From Amphibalanus amphitrite (Eukaryota; Arthropoda; Thecostraca; Balanomorpha; Balanidae): a DNA stretch of 64,000 nt. The stretch is from NCBI RefSeq assembly GCF_019059575.1, contig NW_024881974.1:62001-126000 (forward strand), given 5' to 3'. Positions 3,596-63,347 of the stretch are shown in pieces (position 1 is the stretch's first letter; every line of letters begins with the position of its first letter). A program made the translations under genes and the position numbers. The notes under the pieces are model-generated. The model was not told where the DNA came from and searched no databases. It saw only the letters and a program-made list of their open reading frames with translations.

Positions 3596-6500
3596 ATGAA
3601 GGCTAAACAGCCAACATCAAAACCTCAAAATGAAAAAGCCAAACTAAATCATTATGGTGAGTAAAATATGAGTTATTTGTGTTTTGCTGTCAGTTTTAAT
3701 CATTCTTTATGAAGTACCATAGTGAAAAACTTGACTTCAACTCTGGGTATGATTGCCATCAGGAAAGTCTGTTTGGTGAGCTTTGGTTTTTTGGTTTTGG
3801 TTGTTACTGTTGGTGGACATAACACATAAACCTACATAATTTACATATAAATAGGACTTGCTACTTTTTAAAGTCATATTGATGCACGTCTATTAATTTC
3901 ATTTAGTTACATATCTTATTGTGCTTTGTGAAGATAAATTTGTTCTTGTGCAACTGCAAGGCATGTAACATTGCAGCTCATTGTCCACTTCAGGCAGAGT
4001 TCAAATTAATTACAGTTAACCCTCGCCGGCCGAGGGGGGGGGCGGGTGCCGCCCCCCCATAGGGTTTTTTCGCGATAGCTCCGAACACGCTGGCGATAGC
4101 GAGCTGAAACTTGGCATACCTGACCTTTGATCCAAGCCGCATCTTTTGACACCAACCGCATTTTTGGGTCAGGTCAGGTCACTGACCTATGACGTCATAA
4201 GTGAACCTCTGCACGGTCTTCAGATGTCGCAACTTCGCAACGCCCTCACTGCCAGAGGAGATGTCACAGGGAAATGAAACTTGCAAGATCTAGTATCCAT
4301 TATGAGTCCCACAACTTGTATATCTCGGATTTTTCCTAAAGGTCATATGAGGTCAGGTCATTTTCGTGACCTCACCATTATAAGTCAATGGGGAAAAATG
4401 AAAACTGCTATTCTGACGCCGGGAACGATCTCCAACTATCTCAAGCACACAGAATCGTGATTTTATGCACTCCTTGCAAGGTTAGATGCGTCACTTTTGC
4501 AATGTTGACCTTGCGTGACGTCATTTATGACGTCATCAAGGTCATATTAGTTTTTCGTCAATAACTCTTGATCAAATTGAGCTAGCGAGTCGGGAAAGCC
4601 ACCAATGGACTCAGGAAGACCTGCCGAATCGAATGATATGCGACATGACCTCTTTCGACCAACTTCGTGACCTGGGGGTGCTGACCTGACCTTGACCTGA
4701 GGTCAACACCCCAAGTTGACCTGACCCGGACAAAAAGTATATCATTCGACGCGCCTGAGCAAGACGAACACGATGCTGCCAAAATCGGCGCTCTGCGGCC
4801 GTTTTTTGCGAAGTTATTCACCAAAAACTGAACCGTACCTTGGGGCACTTGACCTGACCTCAGAGGTCACCGGTTGACCTAGGACCTTAAAATCGGGTAC
4901 CAATCTCTGCGTCTCGTAACGGCGCACACGCTCGTTTTTTCCGCGACGCGCTAGCTCCACCAGGGGCGAAACGGCGAGGGGGGGGTCGTACCCGCCCCCC
5001 CCCTCGGCCGGCGCGTATGTAGAAAACCAATAGGTCCGGCGAGGGTTAACCCTTTTTGCTAGATATTGATTAAGTGCTAAATATCATTTACTTTAATTGA
5101 ATTTGGACCTCAGTATTATCTGAATTCAGTCGGCTGGCTCATGGCTGGCCAGCTGGTGACATGTTATAGCTTCCGTAGGTACTTATAGATATAAGCATGG
5201 CAGTAGATGGACATAAACACAAAAAATGGCATTAGTGGAGAAATTGATAAATATTACAGTTATTTGGTCTTTTATATTTAGCATTGATATACAACAAGCT
5301 CTAGTGCCATCATATGGCAGAAGCTGGCAAATAATCCAGTTAGGTAATACTGTGGCCAGAATTTGTGGGGACTATGCCCCAATGGTGTGTTTCAAACTAA
5401 CTTTCCGGGCTCACCAACTGGCATAACTTTCCAACTATTTCTTCAGATTTTTAGGAATCCTCTTAGGTATTTTGTCTTCTTATACACTGCTGTGCGATTT
5501 CAAGCAGTTTTTTTTTCAATTTGTTTCATTTTCTCTGAGTGGTAAATGACAACATTCATATGTAGGTAATTGTTTCATGGTTGAATGTGTTTGATACTTT
5601 AGTTAGTAGGAACCTTGTGAATAACTGTATTTATTAATATCATTCCACCCATTTCAGGCTACAGCTCCAACTCTAAAAACATGCTGATGCTGGGTTTCGA
5701 TGAACTAAGCCCACTCTATGTTTGCTTGGTTCTTCTGAGGTTCCTGCTCTGCATTATCCAGACTGGCTACATTCACCCAGACGAGTTTTTCCAGTCCTTG
5801 GAGCCAGTGGCAGGTAAGCAGCTAGTATGTGCATTGTGCATTGCCTTTTGCTTAACAGGTATATTTAATGAGTCAAGCTAGAGTGCTTTCATTTTACCAT
5901 CATTTTCACACCCACAATGTATGTATATTTTCATATATTTTGACCATGCCTACCCTTTTTAGTTAGATGACTTATGAGTTATTGAATGCTTGTTCATCAA
6001 AATGATGTCTTCTTGCCACTTGGTTTTTAAGTGATCATTGGTGATCTGATGTGCTGCTATCCCAATTTAAGCTAGGTCATCAATGTATTTCACTAAAAGG
6101 CATCGGCAATGAATTTGCCCCATTATATTGTCCAATGCCTAAATTGTCCCTGTCCGACATGTAATGCCTGCGATCAGTGTGCAGTTCTGAGACCCCCCCC
6201 CCACGTTGCAGGCCAGTTTCTCGCTGTGAACGTGACGGTGCCGTGGGAGTTCTCCTCTCGGCTGCCGATCCGCAGCTGGAGCTCGCTGCTGCTCAGCTCT
6301 GGACTGCCAGTGCTGCTGCTGCGGCCCGCCAGCGCCGAACTGCTGCTGGCTGCGCCCCGGCTCTGGATGGCCCTGCTCTCGCTCTCCGTGGACGTGTGTG
6401 TGGCGGCCTGCGCGCGCCTGCTGGGCCGGCCGGCGCGCCGCTGTCTGGAGGCGCTGGCCGGCAGCCACGTGATGCTCGTGTTCGCCACGCGCACCTTCTC

Positions 6501-11124: not shown

Positions 11125-12820
11125 ACCATGTTTGGCCGGGATCGCGATTCGGCGTATGTCGCCTCGCATTAGCCGCGTGTTTGCAGTCTTTTCGTGGTTT
11201 CAAACGTTCAAACATGGGATATGATGTTGCTCCCATGCATTAGGGTGGGTGTCAAGGTCACCGGAAGGTCAGGTCATTTACCTTTGATGACCTCGGTTCA
11301 CATTTTCGAGTTTTATATGTTTCTAGGCTAGTTTTTGGAGCTGAATTCGAATTTAGCAACCATTTGACCGTTTACGAAGTAGTTTTGGTGCCTTTGTAAC
11401 ATGTTACGAAGCTGTCAGACGCGGTTGCCACCTATAACTACGAATAGGGTAGAGTGGGGCAAAGCGCCCAGGGCGGGTCAAACGCCCACCCCTCTTTTTT
11501 ATGAAGTGCTCGACTTTTCGAAGAATTCTCGATAGCCATTTTCAAGAACGAGCAGGAATCTACTTTTGCCCCCTTTTTCGGTTCTATAAGTGGGTTGTTC
11601 TGGACGTAAGATAAAGATTAGTTTATTTCAGACAATTTTTAGAAATTACATGTTTTCATACTACTAAAACTTTGTCTGATAGAGATTAAAGTAGGCAATG
11701 AAATTTAGCTACGCAGAACCTGCGGATTTAAGCTATGTTTTGATTATTTACTGGTTTGCAACACAATCGTCACACGCTTAATTTTGGTGGACTTCGTTTT
11801 AAATGTGCTGTTGGGGTAATACGCCCACTTTGGTGTGGGTCAAAACGCCCATCATGGGCGTTTTACCCCTAATGGGAGTTATACAGTACGGGTATTTGCG
11901 AACATTTTTGGCTGAAAGTGAGTGTCGGGATACGTTTCTAATGCTCAGGATTCTTATGAAATATGCAATATACTGGTTAGTATCGCTTGGAACAATTTAT
12001 TCGCACGAACTAATCTCCGCTCTCCAAGGCGGTGACAGCCCGTTGACTGAATGAGGAGTGGGGTGGTAACAACAGTGTTCAAGATGTGTTTAGTGGTGTA
12101 ATCTATCGATTTAAAGTCAAACGAAATGAGAATGGATAAATACTGCATTCTTTTGTCAGAGTACCGAGCGTGTAATGAAACGTTCAGGACTGGGCGTTAT
12201 GCCCCACTCATATGGGCGTTATGCCCCATGGGTGGGGCAAAACGCCCGATTTGTAGTCCTCTCAATTTGGATGGCATATCTCAAAAACCATGCATGCCAC
12301 TTGTTTCTGATGTGTTATTCAAAGAAAGACAAGGTAATGAGCTACCAGATCAGCTACCTAGTTGTCTTTCAAATTTGTAAGATAAAGAGATACTGGGGCT
12401 GGAAAGTTAGGGTGGGCGCTTTGCCCCACCCTACCCTACCCGACAAAACCCTTACCTACTGGTTGAACTGACCTGACATGACCCGACCTGGCCTAAATGC
12501 ATGAAGACATCATCTATGATCATAACTAACATGATATTCGTGATCAGCACCCCGAAGACAAACATAGCAGCCACCCTTTACGACGCTCTAACAGGTCCCG
12601 ATTTTCCCGACTTTTGGGTCATTGACCTGACCTGGAAGGTCAACCGATGACCTAGGACCTTAAACTTGGGTATCATCGGCTTCCTCTCGTCACGGGCAAC
12701 ACGCTCGTTTTTTCCGCGAAGCTCTAGCTCGATCAGGGGCGAAACGGCAAGGGGGGTCCAACGCCCCCCCCCCCCATATACGTTCGCAGCTGGAAAAACA
12801 CCAATACGGGCGAGGGTTAA
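11125..12820. mobile_element. Truncated family 1 TTAA element, interrupted by a TA element
   Basis: From about 11125 the sequence follows the copy at 22880-23598: CCATGTTTGGCCGG..., a TTAGGGTGGGTGTCAAGGTCA segment, CGAAGCTCTAGCTCGATCAG, a G/C tract and the closing GCGAGGG plus TTAA at 12817-12820. The left end with its own TTAA is absent. It is split at 11445 by the TA-flanked element. Confidence 0.75.
11445..12438. mobile_element. TA-flanked terminal-inverted-repeat element (mariner-like duplication)
   Basis: TA is followed by GGGTAGAGTGGGGCAAAGC, mirrored at the right end by a near-identical inverted copy before TA at 12437-12438. The uninterrupted relative at 23211-23230 reads CGAATACCCG across the same point, confirming a TA duplication. 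The interior contains many GGGGCAAAACGCCC-like strings, probably subterminal binding repeats. No transposase frame is present. Confidence 0.7.
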
Positions 12821-16862: not shown

Positions 16863-18074
16863 TTAACCCGAGGCCCACGAGGGTCTGCGTGTAACGCGCC
16901 CTAACGCCCTCCTAACTCCGAAACTAGTGGGCCGATTACCAAAATTCAAACGGCGTCTGATATAACTAGAAAAACTGTAGAGCGAAACTCAACTTCATTT
17001 CATTGACCTCGAGGTCACTGATGACGTCACAGGTCAGGTCAAAGTAAAACTTATCAATGCTAGGCTTGTTCATATTTTGGGCTTTGGTCGCCGGCTTGCA
17101 AGTCAGATCAGGCTCATTTTTGTTTCCTCACTCGTGAATGAATGCTTTAGATACCCTGAGGGTACCAAACTTGTACTTATATTTTCAAGTCAGGGTCAGG
17201 TCGTCTCAGGTCACGGACACCTTATATCATGCATCGGTCACGTGACACATGCTATATAGTCCATTTAGGCCATACATTTCGAATTTGGTGTTGTTTGTGA
17301 CGATGGAGCATTTTGAGTTGAATTTAGCCGAGGTCAGGTCACTTTCACTCCCAAAAAGCTCCAACTTTAAATTTAGAATTTTTCAACAACAAATACAGTG
17401 TGTATCGGATGCAGTTTGAGCTCAGGAACACGATCGTGCCATTTATATTGGTGTACAATGTCAAATACGTACTGAAAAATTGATTTGAAAAATTTAGGTG
17501 TGATATTTTTATATATATTATAGTTGTGAAATTTTTACTATACCTAATGCGTGTAACTTGGCCATTTTTAACGTATCCGGCTAAAACGTACTACATTTTA
17601 TCATGGGCATGTGTTCTATCACATATATTCGGGGGTTTATCGGCAAGTCAAAAACTTTGGAAAAGCAAACATAAATTTTTAAATTTGATATACATTATTT
17701 TCAGACCTTTGACAATCTGAGATAGCAGTGTGATTGCAGTGTGTTCTGACTTCTGAGTCCTCTCATGCAAAGAAATTGGGTTTAGCTTAAAAACTGACCT
17801 CTTGAGAGCGATTGCCGTAGTTCAATGTTTTGCGTCGAAATTGGCCGAAGATGACGTCACTCTGACGTCATTTCCGGCTGACCTATGGTAGCTACGAAGT
17901 TCATATTTTGACACAAGGTGTCAAATCGATGCAGGTACCTACTGAAAATTTCGCGTCGATATGTGTAGTGGTTTAGAAGTTATTGCAGAAAAACGAGAGG
18001 GGGCTATGAATGTACATATATTTAAATCCTCCTATATACCCCCGCCCCCGCCCCCCTAGTGGGATGCGGGTTAA
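16863..18074. mobile_element. Family 1 TTAA element (CCCG-type ends)
   Basis: TTAA at 16863-16866 is followed by CCCGAGGCCC, and the right end GGGATGCGGG precedes TTAA at 18071-18074. The interior has TGACGTCA near 17015, 17852 and 17865 and many AGGTCA hexamers. The body matches 27872-29062 in reverse. The left G/C tract is replaced by a weak GCCCTAACGCCCTCC segment, and the right end keeps a C-rich tract. Confidence 0.75.
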
Positions 18075-20167: not shown

Positions 20168-21119
20168 TTAACCCTAGAACGCCTAGGGGGGGGGGTGTAT
20201 CAACCCCCCCCCCTGAGGTTTTTTTCGAAGTGCACGCTAAACGGCTTGTCGTAGCGGGCTGAAATTTTCAATACCCTCTGGGGCAACCTTTGCGCATCTT
20301 TTGCCTAAAAAAAATTGATCGGGTCATGTCAGGTCACGGAGTTATGACGTCATAAGAGGTACAGCCTCCGGCCGACAGTTACCAAACGTGTGCGCCGAAT
20401 CCCTAGGTTTTCTGCCGGTGATACCCACATTGTTTGATGGATCGTGATGAAACTTCCCGTGCATGTTGGGGCAAGTATTGGCTATCATATGGTATAAGAA
20501 ACTTGACCGGGTCAGGTCAGGTCACGGAGCTATGACGTCACAAGAGGAACAGCGTTCGGTACTATTTTTGAAAAGCGCCCGAACCACTATTTTGCTAATT
20601 CTTGTCACCTCAATGGGAATATGCAGCAATATTAGCTTCTATAGGGAGCAAATGGACCCCCCAAATCCAAAAATACAATCAGATTTCAAAAATTTAAATT
20701 TTGATTTTTCGAATTTCTGCCGCCGACTGTGACCTTGCCGACTTCCGGCGCTCCCAACGCGCCATTTTTAGAGCTAGGGAAACGAAATACATACCAAACG
20801 ATAGAGAATTGATCAAGGAACACGATAGTGAAAGTTTCAAGTCGATATCTCCCACCGTTTTGCCGCAATCGCCGCGGAAAGTTGAAAAAAGTCTATTTTT
20901 CCGAAAATTTGACCTTTGACCGGTCAAAAGTAGGTCAAATGTTGACCTAGGACCAAAAAATATACCACCAATCGCGAGATCTCGGCGAGAGCAATCGGTT
21001 GGTCTTTTCCGCTAAGCTCTACGACCTTCCGTTTCGAAACGCCAGGGGGGGGGTCGTAACACCCCCCCCCCCCCTGGTCGTTCGTGTTATGAGAAATGGC
21101 CTGGTCGTGCGAGGGTTAA
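20168..21119. mobile_element. Family 1 TTAA element with CCCTAGAA left end
   Basis: TTAA at 20168 is followed by CCCTAGAACGCC, strikingly like the classical piggyBac terminus. The right end is GTGCGAGGG plus TTAA (21116-21119). G/C-tract palindromes sit inside both ends. TGACGTCA lies near 20345 and 20533. The right two-thirds is close to the copies at 38565-39515 and 47352-48299. Confidence 0.85.
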
Positions 21120-21612
21120 AGGGACCCTCCCACCTTCAAAAAAGTTAATGAATTGGCATGAAAGTGATGTCCCTTGGTTCAGAAAGAGCGAAAACGAATA
21201 TCTACCAAATTTCACCGAAAAATATTCTCTGGTTTTCAAGATATTAGGCTTTTACTTTTGTTTACTTTTTGGGATCTCCCCTGTTACTAGCGACTTTATT
21301 TGGAAGCAATAATTTGGCAGCCTTAAAGTGCGGCAGACGTTGCGCGCAAAGCAGCGTATACCACCACGTGTTAACGATGGTTTTAGTCTAAGATTTAAAA
21401 ATCGTTAGATCTCCGCTGACGTCACAAATTCTAAGGGGGCATTCCAATGCATTAGCCCCTTAGAATCCGAAAACTGCAAGTTTGAAATTCCATATCTTCG
21501 AATTAAAGCATTTTTCGATGTTGTGAGTGCCCAAACCGGTATTTGCAGGCCATGGCCACCAATTTGGCTATCTCAACTCAAAACTAATGTTAAGGTGGGA
21601 GTGTCCCTTTAA
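21116..21612. mobile_element. Family 2 TTAA element (AGGGACCCTCCCACCTT ends)
   Basis: The terminal repeats AGGGAC-CTCCCACCTT are inverted at both ends and flanked by TTAA (21116-21119 and 21609-21612). The left TTAA is shared with the right end of the preceding family 1 element. One TGACGTCA lies at about 21418. There is no coding capacity. Related copies are at 38032-38506 and, more distantly, 39512-40023. Confidence 0.8.
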
Positions 21613-21721
21613 AGAATTGCGACAACCTTTTGCCGACCACCGATCGTGGGCGGTCGTAAGTGGTCGCATCGCCTAGTGGGACCGGGGCATAAGATGATCA
21701 AGTAGGGATCAAGTAGCCGGT

Positions 21722-21923
21722 TCTTGACCTGACCTGTGACGTCATCGGTGACCCCGAGGTCAATGAAATTTGGTTTCTTTCGACAAATTTGACAGGGATT
21801 TCAAACGCCGTTTGAATTTTACGGATCCGTCCAGTAGTTTCGGAGATACGGGGTGGGGGCAAAAAATACCCCCCCCCCCACCGCGCGGAAGGTGGCCGGG
21901 AGGCCCACCACCTGCCGGGTTAA
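21722..21923. mobile_element. Right-end fragment of a family 1 TTAA element
   Basis: About 200 bp ending in CCTGCCGGG plus TTAA (21920-21923), with a G/C tract and the string GGTGGCCGGGAGGCCCACC. It is nearly the same as the right end of the copy at 30573-30775. The remaining left part of the element is absent. Confidence 0.75.
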
Positions 21924-22694: not shown

Positions 22695-23598
22695 AGATCC
22701 CTCGCATGTGTAGGGGGGGTTGGATGGACCCCCCCCCATGGTTTTTCGCGAATAACTCGCGTAAAAAGCGGCCGATTGCGACGAAACTTTCAGTACCCTC
22801 ACATTAATCAATTTTACACCTACCCTGAAAATTTCATGACCCTGACCCAAATGACCTTTGACCTGTGACCTCTTTTCCGAGACCATGTTTGGCCGGAATC
22901 GCGATTCTGCGTATGTCGGCTCGCATTAGCCGCGCGTTTGCAAGCTTTTTGTGGTTTCAAACGTTCAAACATGTGATTTGATGTTGCTTCCATGCATTAG
23001 GGTGGGTGTCAAGGTCACCTGAAGGTCAGGTCAGGTCATTGACCTTTGGTGACCTCGGGTGACCTCGGCTCACTTTTTCGAGCTGTACATGTTTCTAGGC
23101 TATAGTTTTTGGAGCTGAATTCGAATTTAGCAACCATTTGAACATTTACGAAGTAGTTGTGGTGCCTTCGTAACATGTTACGAAGCTGTCAGAGGCGGTT
23201 GACACGTACTACGAATACCCGTCACGACGCCTACTGGTTGACCTGACCTGACCTGACCCGACCTGGTCTAAATGCTTAAAGACATCATCCGTGTTCAAAA
23301 CTAACACGATATTCGTGATCAGCACCCCGAAAAACCCCTAAGCAGCCACACTTATCGACTTTCTAACAGGTCCCGATTTTCCCGACTTTGGGTCATTGAC
23401 CTGACCTGGAAGGTCAACCAATGACCTAGGACCTTAGAATTGGGTATCATCGGCTTCCTCTCGTCACGGGCAACACGCTCGTTTTTTCCGCGAAGCTCTA
23501 GCTCGATCAGGGGCCAAACGGCAAGGGGGGGGGGTCCAACCGACCCCCCCCCCCTACACATTAGAAGCTGGCAAACGCCGCACACATGCGAGGGTTAA
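22695..23598. mobile_element. Family 1 TTAA element, left member of a head-to-head pair
   Basis: CCCTCGCATGTGTAGG starts at 22699 beside a mutated target (AGAT), and the right end GCGAGGG plus TTAA is at 23588-23598. G/C palindromes sit inside both ends. The inverted copy beginning at 23615 mirrors it closely over about 900 bp. Confidence 0.8.
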
Positions 23599-23614
23599 CC
23601 CTCGCATGCGAGGG
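23599..23614. repeat. 16-bp palindrome CCCTCGCATGCGAGGG between two TTAA sites
   Basis: Flanked by TTAA at 23595-23598 and 23615-23618, this is two terminal tips joined with nothing between them. It looks like a minimal end-to-end remnant of a family 1 element or an aberrant excision product. Confidence 0.7.
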
Positions 23615-24555
23615 TTAACCCTCGCATGTGTGCGGCGTTTGCCAGCTTCTAATGTGTAGGGGGGGGGTCGGTTGGACCCCCCCTTGCCGTTTGGCCCCTG
23701 ATCGAGCTAGAGCTTTGCGGAAAAAACGAGCGTGTTGCCCGTGACGAGAGGAAGCCGATGATACCCAATTCTAAGGTCCTAGGTCATTGGTTGACCTTCC
23801 AGGTCAGGTCAATGACCCAAAGTCGGGAAAATCGGGACCTGTTAGAAAGTCGATAAGTGTGGCTGCTTAGGGGTTTTTCGGGGTGCTGATCACGAATATC
23901 GTGTTAGTTTTGATCACAGATGATGTCTTGAAGCATTTAGACCAGATCGGGTCAGGTCAGGTCAGGTCAACCAGTGGGCGTCGTGACGGGTATTCGTAGT
24001 ACGTGTCAACCGCATCTGACAGCTTCGTTACATGTTACGAAGGCACCAAAACTACTTCGTAAATGTTCAAATGGTTGCTAAATTCGAATTCAGCTCCAAA
24101 AACCAGCCTAGAAACGGGGAGCATTCATTTTGGCCAGAGTTCATAATGTCCAGGGTACGCGATGCCCAGTGTCAAAATGGCCAGTGCCTTGAATGGGCCA
24201 GAGTTCATAATGTCCAGGGATTGCATGGTCCAAATGTGGCCAACTGGCTGCAGATAGGGTATATTCAAAGAGGCCAGGGTTCATAATGTCCAGGGCACGA
24301 TGTGTCCAGTGTTCAAAATGGCCAGGGTTCATAATGTCCAGGGCACGATGTGTCCAGTATTCGAAATGGCCAGGGTTCATAATGTCCAGGGATTACATAG
24401 TCACTGAAAGTGACGTCATTATGTAAAAAACACGGAATCAGCTCAATGCAAAGCAGTGCAGTGCCGAAGGCAATGCCTTAGGAGAGATTACAGGCAACAG
24501 TAAATCAAATATTTTTAGGTTAAGTGGTTATGTATCTGGCTTCTAAGTGGCTATC

Positions 24556-24614
24556 TAAGTGGCTATGCATCAGGCTTCAGGCCTTCGGCCTGAAGCCTGA
24601 TGCATAGCCACTTA
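24556..24614. repeat. Perfect 28-bp-stem hairpin
   Basis: Positions 24556-24583 are exactly complementary to 24587-24614 across a 3-nt TTC loop. An outer pair (about 24499-24526 with about 24611-24640) shares TAAATCAAATATTTTTAGG and its complement, extending the foldback. Confidence 0.8.
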
Positions 24615-24700
24615 ACCTAAAAATATTTGATTTACTATTGCTTGCAATCTATTCATGCGAGAAACTATTTCCTTATCCCTGGTAGGCAAACATCATTACC

Positions 24701-24805
24701 TTAGGTTAGGTTAGGTTAGGTTAGGTTAGGTTAGGTTAGGTTAGGTTAGGTTAGGTTAGGTTAGGTTAGGTTAGGTTAGGTTAGGTTAGGTTAGGTTAGG
24801 TTAGG
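24701..24805 (+). repeat. Interstitial telomeric repeat (TTAGG)21
   Basis: Twenty-one perfect TTAGG units are followed by degenerate TTTGG TTGGG. TTAGG is the standard arthropod telomere repeat. It sits inside a transposon, so it is interstitial here, not a chromosome end. Confidence 0.95.
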
Positions 24806-25555
24806 TTTGGTTGGGTTGACTATGTAATCCCTGGACACTATGAACTCTGGCCCATTCAAGGCACTGGCCATTTTGAACACTGGACACATCGTGCCCTGGA
24901 CATTATGAACCCTGGCCATTTCGAACACTGGACACATCGTGCCCTGGACATTATGAACCCTGGCCATTTTGAACACTGGACACATCGTGCCCTGGACATT
25001 ATGAACCCTGGCCTCTTTGAATTTACCCTATCTGCAGCCAGTTGGCCACTTTTGGACCATGTAATCCCTGGACAATGTGAACACTGGCCAATTCAAGGCA
25101 CTGGCCAATTCGAGCACTGGACACATTGTGCCCTGGACATTATGAACCCTGGCCTAAATAATACGCACCCCCTAGAAACATGTAAAACTCGAAAAAGTGA
25201 ACCGAGGTCACCCGAGGTCACCAAAGGTCAATGACCTGACCTGACCTTCAGGTGACCTTGACACCCACCCTAATGCATGGGAGCAGCATCAAATCACATG
25301 TTTGAACGTTTGAAACCACGAAAAGCTTGCAAACGCGCGGCTAATGCGAGCCGACATACGCGGGAAAGAGTTCACAGCCACAGGTCAAAGGTCATTTGGG
25401 TCAGGGTCATGAAATTTTCAGGGTAGGTGTAAAATTGATCAATGCGAGGGTACTGAAATTTTCGTCGCGATCGGCCGCTTTTTACGCGAGTTATTCGCGA
25501 AAAACCATGGGGGGGTCCATCCGACCCCCCCCCCCCCTACACATGCGAGGGTTAA

Positions 25556-25833: not shown

Positions 25834-27657
25834 TAGGGGAGAGAGGTCATATTGCGCCACCTTAGGGATATCGGCCTATTGCGGCTAAAGTTGACCAGCT
25901 GTCATGCTTGATGATATCTCAAATTGTACCTCAGTTATTTTGGCATCAAATTACAACTCCTAATTTGTATCACACCCATAAAAATTAACAAGAGAAAAGT
26001 TTTCCGACACACCTGCAAAGGGCGCATTTACGGACTACCCCATCAAAAAGCGCCCATGCCTCTCATGTAAAAGCGCCCTATTAAAAACAACGGTTTGCCA
26101 CCTAACTAAGTAGCCTATTTGAACGTGTCAGCCCATTAACCATTTATGCTGTGAAGGCTAAGGTAATGGTAAGGTGAGCGCTCTAATAATCAAAGTGTTC
26201 AATGAAATGTGTCCCAACCACCAGATGCTGTTTCTCTGGGTTGAAGAATAGGGCGCAAATAGGGTGGGCGCAATTACGAATGGAACACATTTTTCATGAG
26301 CTTCAAATATGGCGAGGACAGCGAACCCACGGTGGTGATAAACTTTCAAAACTACCATTAAACGAGCAATTAACAATGATTATTAGTTGAATCACTATCT
26401 CTAAGATAAACCATGACACTAGCAAAAGTCGAAATAGACTGTTTCGCGTAAGAAAATAGAGGAAATCACAAAAAAAGGGTCTGCGAGAAAGCTGAGACAC
26501 CTCACCTGCCCCCGTGGACCGGAATAAGAGCGAGTTATTGGTGGTGAAGTAAATGCACACATTCGAGCATTCATTCGAATCGAATTTTGGACAGGAGGAA
26601 GGTGTGGCGCATTTAACCCGCGCACCGACGGGGGTCTGCGCCAACTTCGCACCGACGGGGGGGGGGGGGCGGATGACCGCCCCCCCCCTGAGATCTCGAG
26701 AACGAAGCAAGATAGCGACAAGCGGTAAACGGCATCGGATACGCACGGTCAAGATCTACAATTTTTACAAAGGTCATTTTCAGGTCAGGTCAAAGATGAC
26801 GTCACAGGGGTCGAAAAAGTCAAAATGGCGGCGCTAGATATGGAGAGAGTTTTTCTCGAATAACTTTCGAATTAGTCAAGATAGGAACAAACTAAGTGCA
26901 TCATCGTGATCCTCTCGTCAATCCGCATCGACTGATATATATATGTTGACCTCGAAAGGTCAAGGTCAAAGGTTGACCTCAGGTCACGTGACCTCGAGGT
27001 CATCATGTATATCATTCGATGCGTCTTGACGAGCTGAACACAATGAGACCATCCACGCGTCTGTATCTTGTTCCTGTACGGAGTTATTGGCCAAAAACCT
27101 TTGGTGACCTTTGATGACGTCACATGACCTCACAGCTGCCCAACAGCAAAACAGACCTGAAGGTAGTGAAGGTTGATCGTATATGATGTCATGTATGGTA
27201 TATGGGGCCATTCCGACCCGTTTTAGTGGTAAAAACAGGGAGTTGATTTTTCCCCCATTGACTTATAATGGGGAGGTCGCGAAATTGACCTGACCTTAGG
27301 TCACCGATATCAAAATTCCGAGATATACAAATTGTAGCTACTAATGACCTAATAACATCCTGCGACTTTCAAAGGCCTCCGACATCTACTGTAGCTCTGG
27401 CACGGTGACAAAGTTGCAAAAAAGTGACTTGAGGTTGGGTCATTCAAAGTGACCTGGTGACCTGACCTTGAAAGGTAGGAGGTTCAAACTTGCACACCAT
27501 GTGTAAAATTGATGAGGGGATAGTCATACCAAATTTCGCGGCGCTACGCGCCGCGGTTTTCCCGCTATTCGCGAAAAACCTCAGGGGGCGGCGGATATCC
27601 GCCCCCCCCGTCGGTGCGCGGGTTAAGAACATGGCGCAATATGACCTCTCTCCCCTA
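25834..27657. mobile_element. TA-flanked element, copy 1, hosting a family 1 insertion
   Basis: TA is followed by GGGGAGAGAGGTCATATTGC and mirrored by GCAATATGACCTCTCTCCCC plus TA at 27656-27657. Inside are GGGCGCAAA/TTTGCGCCC-type strings. Copy 2 (36905-37756) is its inverted relative without the inner insertion. No transposase frame is present. Confidence 0.8.
26613..27626. mobile_element. Family 1 TTAA element nested in the TA element
   Basis: TTAA plus CCCGCGCACCGACGG (26613 onward) and CCGTCGGTGCGCGGG plus TTAA (27623-27626) are perfect inverted ends, each followed by a G/C tract. The related TA element at 36905 has a single TTAA at the same point (GTTCTTAAATGCG), an empty site that fixes the borders. 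TGACGTCA lies near 26806 and 27114. Confidence 0.92.
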
Positions 27658-27867: not shown

Positions 27868-29062
27868 GACACCCGCGCATGACGGGGGGGGGGGGCTCTA
27901 CAGAGCCCCCCTCCCGTTTTTCGGCAATATCGTCTAAATCGTTAGACGGATCAACACGAAACTTGCGGTACCTTCAGCAACATCATTTTAACACCTTGTG
28001 TTAAAATTTCAACTTTTTAGCTACCATAGTTTGGCCGGAAATGACGTCAGAGTGACGTCATGTCGGCCGTTTTTTGATGCAAAATATTGAATTACGGCAA
28101 ACGCTCTCAAGAGCTTAGTTTGAGAGCTAGATCCAATTTCTTTGCATAAATGGACTACAAATACACGTAGCTATCAATCTACTATCTCGAATTTTCAAAA
28201 TTTTGAAAATTTTGAAAAATATGCTTTACATTTACTCAAAAATATATTCTGATTTTTCAGAAAGTTTTTTATTTTTTTCGCAAAAACCGGAATATATGTG
28301 ATAGAAAAACACACTGCTGAACTACTCCAGAAAGTTTTAGCCCAATATCTTCAAAAATAGCCAAGTTTTTGCATTGTTGTCAAAATTGTACAATTATATA
28401 TGTTTCAAAACCATTATTCGGTACGTTTTTGACATCGAACAGCAATACCCCTAAATGGCACCATCGTGTTCCTGAGCTCAAACTGCATCTGATAGGCACC
28501 TTTTTTGTTGAAAAATTTAATTTCAAAATTTGACCTTTTCTGACCTGAAAGTGGCCTGACCTCCGGTAAATTCAGCTGAAAAATGACCTCAAATGACGCA
28601 GACGACATTATTCTCGAAATCTACGAGTAAAATGGACCATAAAGCATGCGTCACGTGACCGATACATGATATACAACTTTCGTGACCTAGGATGACCTGC
28701 CCTTGACCTGAAAAATTCGAAGTAAAAGTTCGGTAACCTCGGGGTATCTAAGGCACATATCAAGGAGTGCGTAAACCGAAAATGAGCCTGATCGGACTTG
28801 TCAGCCGACGGCCTGAGCCTAAATTGTAAACAAGCAAAAATGCCGATAATTTTTACTTTGACCTGACCTGTGACGTCATCAGTGACCTCGAGGTAAATGA
28901 AAATAGGTTTCGTTCGACAGTTTTTCCAGGGCTATCAGACGCCGTTTAAATATTGACGATCGGCCTAGTAGTTTCGTAGATGGGGGGGGGGGGCTCTGGA
29001 CTCTGGAGAGTCCCCCCCCGTCACTCGCGTTATGGAAAATACCCCAGTCATGCGCTGGTTAA
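27868..29062. mobile_element. Family 1 TTAA element (CCCGCGCATGAC ends)
   Basis: The left end CCCGCGCATGAC starts at 27872 beside a mutated target (GACA). The right end GTCATGCGCTGG precedes TTAA at 29059-29062. A G-tract/C-tract palindrome is present at both ends. TGACGTCA occurs as a pair near 28042 and 28052 and singly near 28870. Body sequence is shared with 16863-18074 in reverse. Confidence 0.78.
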
Positions 29063-29574: not shown

Positions 29575-30775
29575 CTAACCTTCCAGGCGGTGAGAGGGGG
29601 GGGGGCATTTTTTTGCCCCCCCCCCTTTAGTTTTTTCGATATATCTCCAGAACCGCTGCGCCGATCGTCACCAAACTTCCATTACCCTCCCGTGAATAGC
29701 CATTGCACATTGTGACCAAAAATGTATCCAAAGGCTATGATAGGTTGGCCGCTAATGACGTCAGAGTGACGTCATTTTTGCCATTTTCGACCCAAAAAAG
29801 GTTTCGCGGGAAGAGCTGTCAGGCCTACAGCTTTAGAGATACAGAAAAATGTTTCAGACATAAGAGGTGTAGAATTAGCAGGGCTACAAAACTGCCATCT
29901 CGGATTTTTGAAATTTTTGGTTTTTGACCCCAAAAATCAAAAAAAAGATTTTTTGAATATAATAGCTGAAAAATCCAAAAAGTTTTTTGAATTTCGAAAA
30001 AACCGGAATATATGTGATAGTCCCTACCACATTCTATCTACATACCAAATTTGAGATCGATACCTCTTTTTTTGGCCAAGTTATAGCGAAAAAAACTGTT
30101 CAAAATTGATGACGTCAAATTTTCAAACTCAATTTTTAGCAATTCTAGACCTCATAGCGCAAAACAAAGACCACCATTAGACTCCCCGTGACGAGCTGCA
30201 TCGAATCAATACCCATTTTATGCAAAACTAACAACTTTTAAATTTGACCTTTTTTACCTGACCTTGACCTGACCTCCACCAGAAAGTGACCTAAACCGTA
30301 CCTGATGGTCTTATAAGCAACACCATTGAGTTGGAAATGAAAAAATTGGCCATAAAACATGCATCGCACAACACCAGTAAAGTTGGGTTCATGTGGTGAC
30401 CCTTGGTGACCTTTGGTGACCTGACCTGTGACCTGACCTGGTATGACCAGTGACCTCTAATAGCAACATATGTACTAGACAACTGACGCCCTATCGCTGA
30501 TTTTCGACAAAATGCGTTTTACTCGGTGTTTTAGGGCTTACCCTATATGACCCGTGAACGGTGAAACATTTTATCTTTGACATGACCTGTGACGTCATCG
30601 GTGACCCCGAGGTCAATGAAATTTGGTTTCCTTCGACAAATTTGACAGGGCTATCGAACGCGTTTGAATTTTCCGGATCCGTCTAGTAGTTTCGGAGATA
30701 CGGGGGGGGGGGGCAAAAAAATGCCCCTCCCCACGCACGGAAGGTGGCCGGGAGGCCCACCGCCTGCCGGGTTAA
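29575..30775. mobile_element. Family 1 TTAA element (left target mutated)
   Basis: The left end CTAA-CCTTCCAGGCGGTGAG pairs with the right end CACCGCCTGCCGGG plus TTAA (30772-30775). Both have G/C-tract palindromes. TGACGTCA lies near 29757, 29767, 30110 and 30592, with several TGACCTGACC clusters at 30240-30450. Confidence 0.75.
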
Positions 30776-38564: not shown

Positions 38565-39515
38565 TTAACCCTCGCCCGTAAACGGCGATCTGCCACCTTC
38601 GCCCATGCAGGGGGGGGGGGTTGGTGCGACCCCCCCTTGGCGTTTGAAAACGGAGCGTCGTAGAGCTTAGCGGAAAAGACCAACGGATTGCTCTCGCCGA
38701 GATCTCGCGATTGGTGGTATATTTTTTGGTCCTAGGTCAACATTTGACCTACTTTTGACCGGTCAAAGGTCAAATTTTCGGAAAAATAGACTTTTTTCAA
38801 CTTTCCGCGGCGATTGCGGCAAAACGGTGGGAGATATCGACTTGAAACCTTCACTATCGTGTTCCTTGATCAATTCTCTATCGTTTGGTATGTACTTCGT
38901 TTCCCTAGCTCTAAAAATGGCGCGTTGGGAGCGCCGGAAGTCGGCAAGGTCACAGTCGGCGGCAGAAATTCGAAAAATCAAAATTTAAATTTTTGAAATC
39001 TGATTGTATTTTTGGATTTGGGAGGTCCATTTGCTCCCTAAAGAAGCTAATATCGCTGCATATTCCCATTGAGGTGACAAGAATTAGCAAAATAGTGGTT
39101 CGGGCGCTTTTCAAAAATAGTACCGGACGCTGTTCCTCTTGTGACGTCATAGCTCCGTGACCTGACCTGACTCGGTCAAGTTTCTTATACCATATGATAG
39201 CCAATACTTGCCCCAACATGCATGGGAAGTTTCATCACGATCCATCAACCGATGTCCGTACCACCGGCAGGAAACCTCGGGCGCTGGCACTCAGTTTGTG
39301 AAAATCCGGCCGGAGGCTGTTCCCTTTGTGACGTCATAACTCCGTGACCTGACATGACCCGGTCAAATTTTTTTTTATCAAAAGATGCGCAAGGTTTGCC
39401 CCATAAGGTACCCAAAAATTTGGCGGCGCTGCGCGCCGCCGTTTTTGCACTATTTCCGAAAAACCTCAGGGGGGGGGGTTGCACCAACCCCCCCCCCTAC
39501 ATGGGCGAGGGTTAA
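38565..39515. mobile_element. Family 1 TTAA element, near-identical inverted twin of 47352-48299
   Basis: TTAA plus CCCTCGCCCGTAAACGG starts it, and ATGGGCGAGGG plus TTAA (39512-39515) ends it. Both G/C palindromes are present. TGACGTCA occurs near 39143 and 39330. Read in reverse it differs from 47352-48299 at only scattered bases, so both are young. Confidence 0.9.
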
Positions 39516-41885: not shown

Positions 41886-41929
41886 TGGCACATGGCGCTC
41901 GGTCCTGCCGCGCTGTGCTGATGCCGAGG

Positions 41930-47351: not shown

Positions 47352-48299
47352 TTAACCCTCGCCCATGTAGGGGGGGGGGGTTGGTGCAACCCCCCCCTGA
47401 GGTTTTTCGGAAATAGTGCAAAAACGGCGGCGCGCAGCGCCGCCAAATTTTGGGTACCTTATGGGGCAAACCTTGCGCATCTTTTGATAAAAAAATTTGA
47501 CCGGGTCATGTCAGGTCACGGAGTTATGACGTCACAAAGGGAACAGCCTCCGGCCGGATTTTCACAAACTGAGTGCCAACGCCCGAGGTTTCCTGCCGGT
47601 GGTACGGACATCGGTTGATGGATCGTGATGAAACTTCCCATGCATGTTGGGGCAAGTATTGGCTATCATATGGTATAAGAAACTTGACCGGGTCAGGTCA
47701 GGTCACGGAGCTATGACGTCACAAGAGGAACAGCGTCCGGTACTATTTTTGAAAAGCGCCCGAACCACTATTTTGCTAATTCTTGTCACCTCAATGGGAA
47801 TATGCAGCAATATTAGCTTCTATAGGGAGCAAATGGACATCCCAAATCCAAAAATACAATCAGATTTCAAAAATTTAAATTTTGATTTTTCGAATTTCTG
47901 CCGCCGACTGTGACCTTGCCGACTTCCGGCGCTCCCAACGCGCCATTTTTAGAGCTAGGGAAACGAAATACATACCAAACGATAGAGAATTGATCAAGGA
48001 ACACGATAGTGAAGGTTTCAAGTCGATATCTCCCACCGTTTTGCCGCAATCGCCGCGGAAAATTTGAAAAAGTCTATTTTTCCGAAAATTTGACCTTTGA
48101 CCGGTCAAAAGTAGGTCAAATGTTGACCTAGGACCAAAAAATATACCACCAATCGCGAGATCTCGGCGAGAGCAATCCGTTGGTCTTTTCCGCTAAGCTC
48201 TACGACGCTCCGTTTTCAAACGCCAAGGGGGGGGTCGCACCAACCCCCCCCCCCTGCATGGGCGAAGTTGGCAGATCGCCGTTTACGGGCGAGGGTTAA
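47352..48299. mobile_element. Family 1 TTAA element, near-identical inverted twin of 38565-39515
   Basis: TTAA plus CCCTCGCCCATGTAGG at left and ACGGGCGAGGG plus TTAA (48296-48299) at right. Inside both ends are G/C palindromes, and beside the left one is the palindrome GGCGGCGCGCAGCGCCGCC. TGACGTCA lies near 47527 and 47716. Confidence 0.9.
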
Positions 48300-48969: not shown

Positions 48970-49444
48970 TGAACCGGCCGACAAAAGACCATCATTCAAT
49001 CTAGTTTTCTATTGCCGGTATAGTACATAGGATAATACATCGCTGCTCTCATAACCGCTGGCATCACGTGGTACAAAACGGTACGGTACGTGAAAACTGA
49101 AAGGAAGAATAAATAACAGTCACATAATGATTAAGAGACGGTTATGGCGCGCGACTGCAAAACCAAATCAATGAATATCACAGTAATATCTATGAGAGAA
49201 TGAGATAAACAACTGAGACACTCAACATAACGACCAACCTAAACAATAACATGATTTGCACAACTCAACATAATATCAATTTTATCATTTCAGCTTACTT
49301 CGTTCGGGGGTTTCACCGACCCGTCAATATGGCGTCGGAGGGGCCGCGCTGGAGCCTCCAGAAGCGCCACGCTCGCCGCGGCGCGCGTCATGTTTCGCCT
49401 TAAACGCAATGGGAAAACGCAACCAAATTGTACGCGCGGGAACA
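48970..49444 (-). repeat. 3' LTR of the BEL/Pao element (475 bp)
   Basis: The copy runs from TGAACCGGCC to CGCGGGAACA, so in element orientation it begins TGTTCCC and ends GGTTCA. I see no difference from the other LTR by eye. A purine-rich tract (GGGGGAGCCA on the minus strand, about 49445-49454) adjoins it as candidate plus-strand primer. Confidence 0.95.
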
Positions 49445-53694: not shown

Positions 53695-55778
53695 TCCTGC
53701 AGCACAGACGTCTTAACAAAACACGTGTCAGACTGGGGGTCGAGCAGCGCATACACAGTCTTCTCCCTGGCAGGGAAGTCCTTGTGCTTCAGGCGAACTG
53801 GCACCAGCATGGTGTGGGTACACCTGGGTTGCTCAGCTGTGTCACATGAAGTCGCATGGAGGGAGACGGCGCTGGTCTGAGTGCCCTTCGATGTCGCCTT
53901 GTCATTCCTGTGGGAGAAAGTGTCATCATGAAGCAGGGTAGGGTGTTGCCTGCCACACTTTACACAGTGTTGTCTCTTCCTACACTCCCTCCACCTGTGG
54001 CCGCGCCTCAGACAACCTCCACATAGTCCTCTCTGGCGGACCAGCTCTTGCCTCTCCTTCAGGGACATCCTCGAGAATGCTGGGCAGCTGTCCACGGGAT
54101 GATCCTGCTTACACACCACACAGTGGTGTTGTTGCATCCAACGGCCGCTGTCCTGTGGTCTCTGTTTGTCGCTCGGCGCAGATGTAAGCAGAACACGTGC
54201 ATTTCTTGGTTTTGGTTGTAGTTTCCTCTCCTCTTCACTGCCCCTCACCAACACTGGACCGGAGGCGACTCTGGCCTCTCTGCTGACAAACTGTACAAAG
54301 TGTTCGAACGGTGGATACTGAGGATGAGCTCCTTCTCCTGGTTCGTAAATCCACCGGTCCACGATTCGCCTCCAGCTGTCTGTGAGGTATCTGGGCAGCT
54401 TCTTCAGGATAGGATCTATCTCAGATGGACTGCCAAATATCTTCAGACCATCCATGCTGTTGGAATTCACCATACAGAGTTCCAGGAAGTCTGACAGTTC
54501 GGTGAATGCCTTGCTGTCACCCATCTTCACATCAGGCCATCTTTGAAGACGCTTCTTCAGCTCGTTGATGGTGATGAACACGTTGCCATACCTGTCCTTC
54601 AGGCGCTTCTTCGCATGCAGGTAAGCCTCATCAGTGCCCATCTGTAGGAAGCCTGTGATTGCACTTCTCGCTTCCCCTGTTGTATAGTGGCCTAAATAAT
54701 GAAGTCTCTCTCTGGGTGATGAACATCTGGACTCAATATAGGTCTCGAAGGCGTTCAACCAAATGCAAAAGGTCGTGTGGTCTCCCTTAAACACTCCTGG
54801 CTCTGTGGGAGGTAGCTGGGATCTCTGAGCTTGGATGGACAGGATATCAGCCACAGTAGTGGCTGTTACCTGTGTCGGAGCAGCAGTTTCTGGTGTGGGA
54901 GTAGGTTCATGGTCCTGGCAGTGGACAGGAACAGGGGTATCAGTGGAAGGCACAACAGGTTCTGTCACGTCTTTACCTGCTTCGTGGCAGTCAGTTGGTT
55001 GTGCCTCAGTTGTCCCCTGTCTTCCAATACCAGGCGTCTTCACCTTCTCTGTCTCTTCCTGTCTTGTTGGCGTCATGAACGAATCAACCTTCTGCTCCAT
55101 CATTTCGAGTACTTCTTCCTTTGCTTCGTGAATCCTTCTTTCAGTCTCGATTTGATGCATCTCTTCTTTCCACTTCAACTCCTGCATCTTTGACTCCATC
55201 ATCTTCATCTCCATCTCCAACTTCTGTTTCTCTTCCAGGGCAGCAGCTCTTGCCTTTGTCTCTGCTGCATGCTGGCTTTCTTGGACTTTCAGCATGAAGA
55301 GCTGAGCTCTCATGGCAGAGCCTGAAGATGATCTGGAACTCTGAGCCACAGACGAGCAGTCGTCTGGTCTTCTCTTGGGCTTCTCACTTGTGACTTCTTC
55401 TGGAAGCATCAGGGACTCAATTGTTGCTCGGGTGCTGTCTAACTGCATCAATCTGCCTTCATAGGTGGACTTGTGCACCTCGTACTCTGCTCCCAGCAGG
55501 GGACGCAGGTCTTCATTTGTTTGCAGTAGCAGCAGATGACTGTGCTTCCATTTGGCAACCTTCTTAGCCATCTTCTCATTCGTTTGCTCATCTTCGTCTT
55601 GAGTTGCGAGTTCATCTAGCAGGGATGTACCATCTTTCTCTAACTTAACGAGCATCTGCTTGAACACCTTCAGTTTCATTCCAGTTTGGTACTCTCTGCC
55701 CTTTTCTGTCAGCTTCAGTTCATGAGACGAGCGGGTCTCTGGTCTATAGTCATCAGTAGCTCCCTCTGGGTTATCCAT
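53685..55778 (-). CDS. gag: BEL/Pao Gag with start of the protease domain
   Basis: The 697-residue frame has a charged coiled-coil region (about 158-235), a capsid-like DUF1759 domain (about 320-475) and a cysteine-rich nucleic-acid-binding region with several zinc-knuckle-like motifs (from CVVCKQDH near 553 to CVKCGRQH near 605). The last 45 residues begin the DUF1758 protease, with LLDPQSDT near 678 as the likely catalytic aspartate segment. The protease therefore straddles the gag/pol frame change at the overlap ATGGGTCTGA. The start is the first ATG after the 5' leader (55779-56114). Most BEL elements I know of use one continuous frame, so this -1 arrangement is either programmed or a recent one-base indel. 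Confidence 0.93.
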   Translation of the reverse strand: MDNPEGATDDYRPETRSSHELKLTEKGREYQTGMKLKVFKQMLVKLEKDGTSLLDELATQDEDEQTNEKMAKKVAKWKHSHLLLLQTNEDLRPLLGAEYEVHKSTYEGRLMQLDSTRATIESLMLPEEVTSEKPKRRPDDCSSVAQSSRSSSGSAMRAQLFMLKVQESQHAAETKARAAALEEKQKLEMEMKMMESKMQELKWKEEMHQIETERRIHEAKEEVLEMMEQKVDSFMTPTRQEETEKVKTPGIGRQGTTEAQPTDCHEAGKDVTEPVVPSTDTPVPVHCQDHEPTPTPETAAPTQVTATTVADILSIQAQRSQLPPTEPGVFKGDHTTFCIWLNAFETYIESRCSSPRERLHYLGHYTTGEARSAITGFLQMGTDEAYLHAKKRLKDRYGNVFITINELKKRLQRWPDVKMGDSKAFTELSDFLELCMVNSNSMDGLKIFGSPSEIDPILKKLPRYLTDSWRRIVDRWIYEPGEGAHPQYPPFEHFVQFVSREARVASGPVLVRGSEEERKLQPKPRNARVLLTSAPSDKQRPQDSGRWMQQHHCVVCKQDHPVDSCPAFSRMSLKERQELVRQRGLCGGCLRRGHRWRECRKRQHCVKCGRQHPTLLHDDTFSHRNDKATSKGTQTSAVSLHATSCDTAEQPRCTHTMLVPVRLKHKDFPAREKTVYALLDPQSDTCFVKTSVLQEWV

Positions 55779-56114
55779 CGCGTCAGTGTGGGTCGAGAAC
55801 CAGAGGATTGGGAATAGACGTCAATCGAACAGAAGGATAGGTCTGGATTTAATCACAGTAGTTAGTGGGGGAACAGTGTCATCAATGAAAACCACACTAC
55901 ACTACATAACCAACACAAATTGTGACTACAGGCAAAATACGAGCCAGAACGTATAAAATAAAGAAAATGTGAAGATCAGTCAATCTCTTGACCAATCAAC
56001 ACAAATCAAAATTCACTACAATGAGATATCACAAGCTACTTCATGGGAAATCATCTATGGATTAGACTATCAAAAACGGGAAAGTAAAATGAATTAAACT
56101 GAACGAATTTTCAC

Positions 56115-56589
56115 TGAACCGGCCGACAAAAGACCATCATTCAATCTAGTTTTCTATTGCCGGTATAGTACATAGGATAATACATCGCTGCTCTCATAAC
56201 CGCTGGCATCACGTGGTACAAAACGGTACGGTACGTGAAAACTGAAAGGAAGAATAAATAACAGTCACATAATGATTAAGAGACGGTTATGGCGCGCGAC
56301 TGCAAAACCAAATCAATGAATATCACAGTAATATCTATGAGAGAATGAGATAAACAACTGAGACACTCAACATAACGACCAACCTAAACAATAACATGAT
56401 TTGCACAACTCAACATAATATCAATTTTATCATTTCAGCTTACTTCGTTCGGGGGTTTCACCGACCCGTCAATATGGCGTCGGAGGGGCCGCGCTGGAGC
56501 CTCCAGAAGCGCCACGCTCGCCGCGGCGCGCGTCATGTTTCGCCTTAAACGCAATGGGAAAACGCAACCAAATTGTACGCGCGGGAACA
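56115..56589 (-). repeat. 5' LTR of the BEL/Pao element (475 bp)
   Basis: It matches 48970-49444 along the full length by eye. It should hold the promoter for the element's minus-strand transcript. Confidence 0.95.
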
Positions 56590-62175: not shown

Positions 62176-63347
62176 TTAACCCGCGCCCGGCTGGGGGTCC
62201 TGGATTTCCACGCCCTGCTGGGGGGGGGGGTGTTTGAACACCCCCTTCTAACTCGGCTCCTGAGCCACGTAGCGATACACGGAAGGCGGCGTTCGAAAGA
62301 GCGTCAAAAATAATGACGAAATCACTTCGGTCAATTTTTTGGTCAGGTCAAAGGTCAGGTCACCAGAGGTCATTGAAGGCAAAATTTCGGCGATTTCCAG
62401 GTCGAATGTCGACAATTTCCAAGAAGCCAACGCATAACTCGGGAACCAATAGAGCTACAGAGCCGCGGAAAGGCGCATTCGATAGCCCTATTAACGCCCT
62501 TTCTGAGTAATTTTCTCAGATTTGACCTAACGTCAACGGTTTTGCCTGCAAGGGGCAAAAACTGCAAAAATAGCCGATTTTTTTCGGAAACAGTTTTTCT
62601 GCAATAACTTTCGACCCAAGCCTTTTACGAGCTTACTTTTACCGGCATCGTGTTCCTCTCGTCAAGACGCATCGAATGAACTATAACTTGACCTTGAAAG
62701 GTCAACTTTAAAATTTGACCTCAGGTCAAGGTCATGACCTGACCGGAAAGGGTCATGTTGCATATTCAGTCGATCCGTATCGTCGAGCTGAACACATCTA
62801 AGGCGTTTTCATCGCTCTAGCATGCCTCTATCAAAAGTTATTTGCGAAAAACTGTTAGATGCCATTCGTGACCTAAGATGACCTCAGGGCATAAACAGGG
62901 GTCACGGACACCATTTTCATGTTCAGTGTGTCTAAACCACTTGTAATCCAGTGTTTGGGAGTGTTTATAATGTCTTTCGTCCAAAAGAGGCGCATTTCAA
63001 TTTTCTCCCATTGACTTACAATGGGGAAGTCGCAAAATTGACCTGACCTTAGGTCATCGATAGCAAAATTCTGAGATATACATTTTGTACATGTTATTAC
63101 TCTTAGCAATCGCTGAAAGTTTCAAAGCGATCGGTCACTCGGTGTAGCTATGACAGACATTGAAACTTTTTATGAGGTGAGGTCACTTCAAGTGACCTGG
63201 TGACCTGACCTTGAATGACCTTGGTCTGAAATTTTCACAACATGTGTAGAATTGATGTATGAAGCCGTTTTTGAGATATTAGCGAAAAACCACAAGGGGG
63301 GGGGGGTGTTCAAACACCCCCCCCCCCCCCAGCAGGGCGCGGGTTAA
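62176..63347. mobile_element. Family 1 TTAA element (CCCGCGCCC ends)
   Basis: TTAA plus CCCGCGCCCGGCTGG begins it, and CAGCAGGGCGCGGG plus TTAA (63344-63347) ends it. G/C palindromes of the form GGGGGTGTTTGAACACCCCC lie inside both ends. The body contains dense GGTCAGGTCA/TGACCTGACC clusters. It is related to 26613-27626 in reverse. Confidence 0.88.

Follow-up and report, generated by a model that had tools for sequence, protein, structure and literature searches.

Background

The two ends of the piggyBac transposon are reported to measure 35 and 63 bp, the longer one carrying an insertion and a sequence duplication (PMC7351741). The piggyBat element is described as having no easily seen pattern of asymmetric ends and palindromes, so that this pattern is no strict trait of the superfamily (PMC11707139). 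For extra internal sites in the piggyBac superfamily, both stimulating and inhibiting cases have been reported (PMC7351741, PMC11707139). Ends of the piggyBac type, miniature inverted-repeat transposable elements (MITEs) and internal binding sites are thus already known separately. We describe here a set of TTAA elements from the barnacle Amphibalanus amphitrite, found in a stretch of 64,000 nucleotides (contig NW_024881974.1, positions 62,001 to 126,000; hereafter the window), which join ends resembling those of piggyBac to phased internal arrays of TGAC-based sites: runs of GGTCA units and the palindrome TGACGTCA. We discuss whether these arrays may act in transposition.

Motif excess in the window and in the genome

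The window holds 27 copies of TGACGTCA, which we take to be the exact cAMP response element (CRE)/ATF word, against a mean of 1.01 and a maximum of 4 in dinucleotide shuffles; the initial annotation, made from the letters alone, had put the count at 25 or more, with about one expected by chance. AGGTCA occurs 209 times on both strands (shuffle mean 29.9, maximum 43). Using TTAA, tip sequence and sequence comparison, we delimited 13 TTAA elements (E1 to E12, with E6a and E6b). They form 14 intervals, one element being split by an insert, and occupy 13,392 of the 64,000 bases (21%), E5 being a fragment and the start of E2 approximate. The span originally annotated, 4016-63347, is bounded by the TTAA of E1 and that of E12.

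Inside the 13 elements lie 22 of the 27 TGACGTCA, 159 of the 209 AGGTCA and all 40 occurrences of GGTCAGGTCA/TGACCTGACC. In each of the 14 intervals, AGGTCA exceeds the maximum of 300 shuffles of that interval, so that AGGTCA density departs from that of shuffled sequence throughout. The other five TGACGTCA lie outside and outnumber those in shuffles of the outside sequence (mean 0.65, maximum 3). Fifty AGGTCA also lie outside (shuffle mean 24.0, maximum 33), and part of the motif excess therefore persists beyond the 13 elements. Two of the five outside TGACGTCA, at 21417 and 38220, fall within the copies of a second repeat (21116-21612 and 38032-38506). The same copies had also been said to hold both motifs: this is true of AGGTCA, in excess in every interval, and untrue of TGACGTCA in E2, E6a, E6b and E12, which have none. 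TGACGTCA is likewise absent from 8 of the 21 elements in our between-family comparison list.

The excess extends to the whole assembly (807,550,619 bases in 2,644 contigs), which holds 207,243 TGACGTCA; as the same word reversed occurs 17,092 times, some 190,000 of these are in excess. For GGTCAGGTCA, we found 319,982 matches (160,470 + 159,512, three-unit arrays scoring twice) against 3,001 reversed (1,558 + 1,443). Eight stretches of 5 kb, picked by position on already known contigs, contained 12 TGACGTCA, of which locus L041 alone gives six, together with 55 AGGTCA and 6 GGTCAGGTCA; reversed TGACGTCA and AGGTCA were found 0 and 31 times. If the motif density of the elements in this one window is extrapolated, such elements may make up 107-116 Mb, or 13-14% of the genome. 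Comparison copy by copy shows that E1 and its counterparts L055 and L070 each have 3 TGACGTCA and 21 AGGTCA, and that E7 and L052 each have 2 and 19. As copies elsewhere in the genome retain these counts, the motifs are not lost between copies.

Element ends and classification

Intact copies measure 0.89-1.21 kb, with one further group at about 0.6 kb. As in a target-site duplication, TTAA stands at both tips of intact copies and repeat alignments end there; the alignment of the near-identical E10 and E11 ends within one base of it. Parts of the tips are lost or decayed in E3, E6a, E8 and E9. The order from the tip is TTAA-CCC, a family tag, then a G-run/C-run palindrome (for example 47370..47397, at the short end of E11). 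The distance from tip to G-run is 13-15 bp at the short end and 39-42 bp at the long end, which is longer because of a second tag copy shifted by 26-28 bp. We observed this asymmetry and shift in 18 of 22 end-measured elements, among which one family is represented several times. In the second tag copy, 8-11 of 11 letters match, except in E4 (7 letters). The four elements without the standard shift are E6a, in which the TTAA is lost and distances were counted from CCC, and E9, E8 and E3, in which the ends are decayed. A strict short-end pattern, matched by six ends in the window, has 13,476 forward-strand matches genome-wide, against 0 and 3 for the reversed pattern; on the reverse strand the count of 48,936 scores long G-runs several times.

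Inside the 13 elements, no stop-to-stop frame of 150 amino acids (aa) or more was detected, except one overlapping the edge of E7. MITEs are very short, about 100-500 bp, a range exceeded by our intact copies and by the group of about 0.6 kb. As in MITEs, however, the elements have no transposase of their own and share their ends with transposase-bearing relatives (the halves of E4 with an element on contig C44, E9 with a flank on contig C702), and a transposase of the DDE_Tnp_1_7 type is found only in these relatives. Other TTAA superfamilies, Kolobok and Sola3, have transposase types of their own; the transposase-bearing relatives found here are piggyBac. On the basis of these sequence comparisons, we class the window elements as gene-less members of a piggyBac lineage.

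Transposase-bearing relatives

The genome has at least 116 matches to PF13843 (116 of 232 candidates were scored). Among the 30 loci returned, 22 have a TTAACCCATTA-type tip. The element at C702:33509-39481 combines asymmetric G-palindrome ends, the tags of which match, with arrays on both sides and a frame of 683 aa; a copy 97% identical to E7 is nested inside it, and one TGACGTCA lies outside this nested copy. The C702 protein matches PF13843 (DDE_Tnp_1_7) with an E value of 2.1e-64 and the piggyBac transposase structure 6x67 with an E value of 2.1e-66. The latter alignment passes through three Asp positions, which we take to be the catalytic residues of piggyBac transposase, and is weak in the cysteine-rich C-terminus. 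E9 is 76% identical to the 5' flank of this frame over about 740 bp.

On C44, from position 1060842 onward, the two halves of E4 (identity 83-95% in pieces of the short half, 89% in the long half) flank a frame of 667 aa, whose 5' side carries four TGACGTCA modules at intervals of 187-193 bp; the short-end TTAA presumably lies just past the fetched end. The last 78 residues of the frame match at least three relatives only in a separate frame, which suggests a frame shift ahead of the C-terminal domain, either in the C44 copy or in those relatives. On contig C33, the stretch read, 5' of a third transposase frame and short of the tip, has four clusters about 163 bp apart.

In a FastTree phylogeny of 17 proteins, two of them from shortened frames, the proteins of L032, L073 (C44) and L075 (C702) form one clade with support 1.0 on a long branch; this trio was preselected as array-bearing, L032 on one-sided evidence. 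Among the 70 matches listed for the C44 protein, those on C42, C527, C1173 and C171 are 96-99% identical over 593-611 aa, the C1173 frame having one stop. Identity falls to 38-39% for C33, C431, C257 and C702, and to 27-29% for the listed piggyBacs outside this group that align along most of their length. Gene-less copies, many thousands in number, thus far exceed the transposase genes, of which there is a handful.

PiggyBac families with TTAACCCATTA-type tips were considered as parents of the window elements and rejected: their tips differ and, in the copies examined, no arrays lie within them, those near L006 and L024 sitting outside the TTAACCCATTA-type tips. We also rejected L016 as an array-bearing parent, as its protein falls outside the clade of L073, L075 and L032; the arrays that adjoin its transposase probably belong to a neighbour. 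At L024:7-3825, an array-less piggyBac with TTAACCCATTAGTGCC tips (667-3347) has inserted in a TTAA inside an array-type element.

Conservation, polarity and pitch of the arrays

We compared 13 elements in 15 pairwise global alignments (53-73% identity), excluding the tips and scoring each pair in both directions. Of 67 TGACGTCA places, 40 are conserved, compared with 1,695 of 28,213 (6%) among all other 8-mers; for GGTCA the figure is 244 of 521, compared with 13% over all 5-mers. Seven of the nine best-kept 5-mers, out of 283 with at least 40 places, are parts of the motifs. Judged from these alignments, motif words are better kept between families than other words.

The arrays are oriented and regularly spaced. 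When elements are read from tip to middle, GGTCA (inward) is found 168 times and TGACC (outward) 48 times, and inward words form the majority in 12 of 12 elements, if narrowly in E6a (11:10). At both ends, sites are concentrated some 150-200, 300-380 and 500 bp from the tip. A common period of 170 bp fits best, with a power of 120.7 that none of 1000 random cluster placements reaches (maximum 77.8). Neighbouring clusters of at least two sites lie 140-215 bp apart in 26 of 36 pairs, with a median of 165 bp for these. In 28 intervals between clusters, base composition showed no clear pattern beyond the motif. Loci L045 and L068 have no dense cluster near one end. A TTAA family of about 620 bp has pairs of TGACGTCA and hardly any AGGTCA: L041 shows one pair toward each end, and the short-end pair is doubled in L001-L004 (3-kb loci with 99.9% identity, treated as a single case).

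Within arrays, same-strand AGGTCA pairs in the window are most frequent at 5-bp steps (32 pairs), the spacing reported initially; an example module (20510..20540, + strand) consists of GGTCA units at 5-bp steps followed by TGACGTCA. Sixteen pairs lie 10 bp apart, as in a direct repeat with 4-bp spacing (DR4), 12 of them lacking a middle copy. Other direct repeats are DR0 (4), DR1 (5), DR2 (2), DR3 (0) and DR5 (7), and inverted repeats are IR0 (1), IR1 (3), IR5 (8) and IR11 (9). The commonest spacing, 5 bp, fits no receptor spacing, although some receptor-like pairs exist. (GGTCA)n also resembles pentamer telomere repeats, which are TCAGG in some beetles and TTAGG in arthropods.

Interpretation of the arrays

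With a confidence slightly above even, we favour the hypothesis that the TGAC-based sites (GGTCA arrays and TGACGTCA) in gene-less copies of this piggyBac lineage are internal binding sites used in transposition. The transposase of the lineage, or a host protein recruited to it, would bind the sites, and bound internal sites would serve recognition and pairing of the two ends. Gene-less derivatives would retain several hundred bases per end because the sites are needed and, in multiplying, would have seeded the genome with motifs. The initial annotation had left a choice between ready-made regulatory modules and binding arrays that merely look like CRE and receptor sites. The latter option fits better with the piggyBac ends, the transposase-bearing relatives, the inward facing and the common pitch; the former is weakly supported, by the CRE word and the 16 DR4-like pairs, and the non-receptor spacing of 5 bp speaks against it.

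It is conceivable, if doubtful, that the arrays are instead enhancer or promoter sites for host factors (basic leucine zipper proteins at TGACGTCA, others at GGTCA) that drive the transposase and were inherited by the gene-less copies. The exact CRE/ATF word would suit such a role, the arrays stand between short end and frame start in C702, C44 and C33 (with the tip not reached in C33), and promoter sites would likewise be expected to be kept between families. However, C702 has arrays on both sides of its frame, gene-less copies have them in both halves and mostly facing inward, and these copies of 0.89-1.21 kb retain their arrays without a gene to express. A promoter role of the 5' arrays may coexist with a role in transposition. 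Co-option of copies by host genes, as response elements for CREB/ATF or nuclear receptors, appears improbable. In its favour are the great number of copies, with some 190,000 excess TGACGTCA in the genome, the 16 DR4-like AGGTCA pairs in the window and a related precedent in a human piggyBac-derived fusion protein, whose recruitment to AP-1 motifs correlates with regulated genes in the vicinity (PMC3459987). Yet in the same account MER85 copies themselves are uncorrelated with expression change (PMC3459987), and the most frequent AGGTCA spacing here is not that of a receptor. Nuclear-receptor sites were for this reason set aside as the principal explanation, although DR4-like pairs exist. We have as little confidence that arrays and pitch arose passively and without function, through successive tandem duplications of a unit of about 155-190 bp. 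E4, E10, E11 and C44 do contain clear repeats at distances of 187-193 bp, and some other adjacent units are weakly similar; but most unit pairs lack detectable similarity outside the motif while motif and pitch persist, and under neutral drift motif and spacer should be lost equally fast.

Several observations weigh against binding sites used in transposition. The C44 arrays lie mainly 5' of the frame, as a promoter role predicts, and at the C44 long end there is a single cluster, of GGTCA-type words at 181-204 bp from the tip, without any TGACGTCA. Within the tips of other piggyBacs of the genome, we found no such arrays in the copies examined; the arrays are therefore no general piggyBac need. 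Those of L032 are on one side only, and their membership of the L032 element is putative. L006, L016 and L029 have arrays nearby yet fall outside the clade; the L006 arrays belong to a copy into which L006 inserted, and those near L016 and L029 probably belong to other copies in the same way. In piggyBat, an extra internal binding site is reported to lower activity (PMC11707139). Independence is overstated in our conservation analysis, as the alignments are weak, the families related and repeated words alignable by choice, and it is also overstated in the period statistic (12 related elements, 239 sites). Adjacent units are similar (z>3) in 9 of 72 direct and 3 of 72 reversed comparisons, and tandem duplication in some elements therefore explains part of the pitch. 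Finally, 10 of the 36 cluster pairs fall outside 140-215 bp (four at 119-135 bp, six at 371-531 bp), and gaps free of sites vary widely in size, 31 of 49 being shorter than 147 bp.

Where the pitch of about 165-170 bp comes from is a matter for speculation, nucleosome spacing being one guess. Nucleosomes repeat every 165-190 bp or so, around a core of 147 bp. We tentatively suggest, while thinking it unlikely, that the ends are chromatin-aware: clusters of transposase sites at this pitch would preferentially lie between positioned nucleosomes, with the end read as a chromatinised array and not as naked DNA. With most gaps shorter than a nucleosome core, a simple picture of one nucleosome per gap is disfavoured. 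If the chromatin-aware reading is true, amplification of gene-less copies put about 190,000 excess CRE words into one animal genome.

Individual elements and other features of the window

E1 (4016..5049, + strand) is intact, with TTAA at both ends, the short end left and the long end right, and clusters centred 164, 340, 510, 676 and 847 bp from the short tip. E2 (11125..12820, +) has a decayed left end, an intact long right end (TTAA at 12817-12820) and 9 AGGTCA. E3 (16863..18074, -) is decayed, with its long end left; two of its TGACGTCA stand close to the short end at a distance of 11 bp and one close to the long end; E8 (27868..29062, +), whose left TTAA is decayed, also has a pair near the short end and one near the long end. 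The group of E4, E10 and E11 is intact in all three copies. E4 (20168..21119, +; 952 bp) has two modules, each a GGTCAGGTCA-type array plus TGACGTCA, 188 bp apart. E10 (38565..39515, -) is 98% identical to E11 (47352..48299, +; 948 bp), in which, measured from the short tip, TGACGTCA occurs at 175 and 362 bp, both times adjoining a GGTCA array. E5 (21700..21923, +) is a long-end fragment with its TTAA at 21920-21923 and one TGACGTCA, and is 91% identical over 200 bp to the right end of E9 (29575..30775, +), which has its short end left, a decayed TTAA and 4 TGACGTCA. E7 (26613..27626, -) and E12 (62176..63347, -) are intact with the long end left, E12 holding 21 AGGTCA.

E6a (22699..23598, +), with its left TTAA lost and its long end right, is faced by E6b (23615..25555, -), which is 96% identical and split by an insert at about 24116-25170. 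Between the two head-to-head copies, TTAA-CCCTCGCATGCGAGGG-TTAA (23595..23618) comprises 16 bp reading as two fused tips; at this junction (23585-23618), the 16 bp may be what is left of a third copy that lost its entire interior. The E6b insert (24116-25170) consists of inverted repeats (24127-24391 and 24894-25159) flanking a 117-bp array of (TTAGG)n, presumably the arthropod-type telomere repeat. The second repeat mentioned above has TTAAAGGGAC tips and, in its first copy, TTAA at both ends; its two copies are 87.5% identical, and each has one TGACGTCA and adjoins the long end of an E4-group copy.

A BEL/Pao retrotransposon occupies 49816-55820 on the minus strand, with long open frames (Peptidase_A17, DUF5641, integrase zinc domain, DUF1759). 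Its coding region is flanked by direct repeats of 475 bp (48970-49444 and 56115-56589), probably its two long terminal repeats; as these are 100% identical, the insertion is probably recent. Other long open frames encode an Alg9-like mannosyltransferase (PF03901; 6097-7935, +) and a phospholipase B-like protein (PF04916; 34387-36096, -), and a 31-bp tandem array of about 41 copies extends over 41913-43118. Scans of the window for known RNA families (at gathering score) and for tRNAs (with the bacterial code) returned none.

Comparison with known systems

In the titles and abstract openings of the open-access papers listed on piggyBac subterminal sites, on subterminal repeats and nucleosomes and on barnacle and piggyBac-like MITEs, we found no description of phased TGAC arrays; nor did we find one in those on transposable elements with AGGTCA and TGACGTCA. 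The elements offer a natural series of families in which the piggyBac end geometry is kept and a new layer of phased, inward-facing internal sites is added. It makes two questions testable, namely the role of extra internal transposase sites in the piggyBac superfamily and whether transposon ends fit chromatin. In practice, a naive motif or chromatin immunoprecipitation analysis of this genome would misread the excess as a huge CREB/nuclear-receptor regulon.

Sleeping Beauty, of the Tc1/mariner superfamily, has about 165 bp between its outer and inner sites. Its inverted repeat/direct repeat ends of about 220 bp resemble the ends described here in that outer and inner transposase-binding sites act in an ordered synapsis; they differ in having two sites per end, where we observe repeated clusters (PMC7827188). 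Among crustaceans, Daphnia Pokey and its mPok MITEs likewise represent a piggyBac with MITE derivatives, although Pokey targets ribosomal DNA (PMC3849761, PMC4912750). The coral CMITEs are also TTAA MITEs tied to piggyBac-like transposons and more conserved between families in their interior than at their tips. However, they are described as about 100 bp long with a continuous conserved core of 75 bp, whereas our elements are 0.6-1.2 kb long and keep short words in a diverged background (PMC2872659). PGBD3/MER85 provides another case of piggyBac deletion derivatives, in which binding needs an internal palindrome beside the tip; MER85 retains about 100 + 40 bp in 889 copies and, as described, has no arrays (PMC3459987). 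In the same superfamily, piggyBat has an extra internal transposase-binding site in its left end, but its sites are few and inhibitory as described, in contrast to phased arrays (PMC11707139). With piggyBac of Trichoplusia ni, finally, our elements share the TTAA target, asymmetric ends, a palindromic repeat near the tip and a similar transposase; unlike piggyBac as described, they have a G-run/C-run hairpin palindrome followed by hundreds of bases with phased TGAC arrays (PMC7351741).

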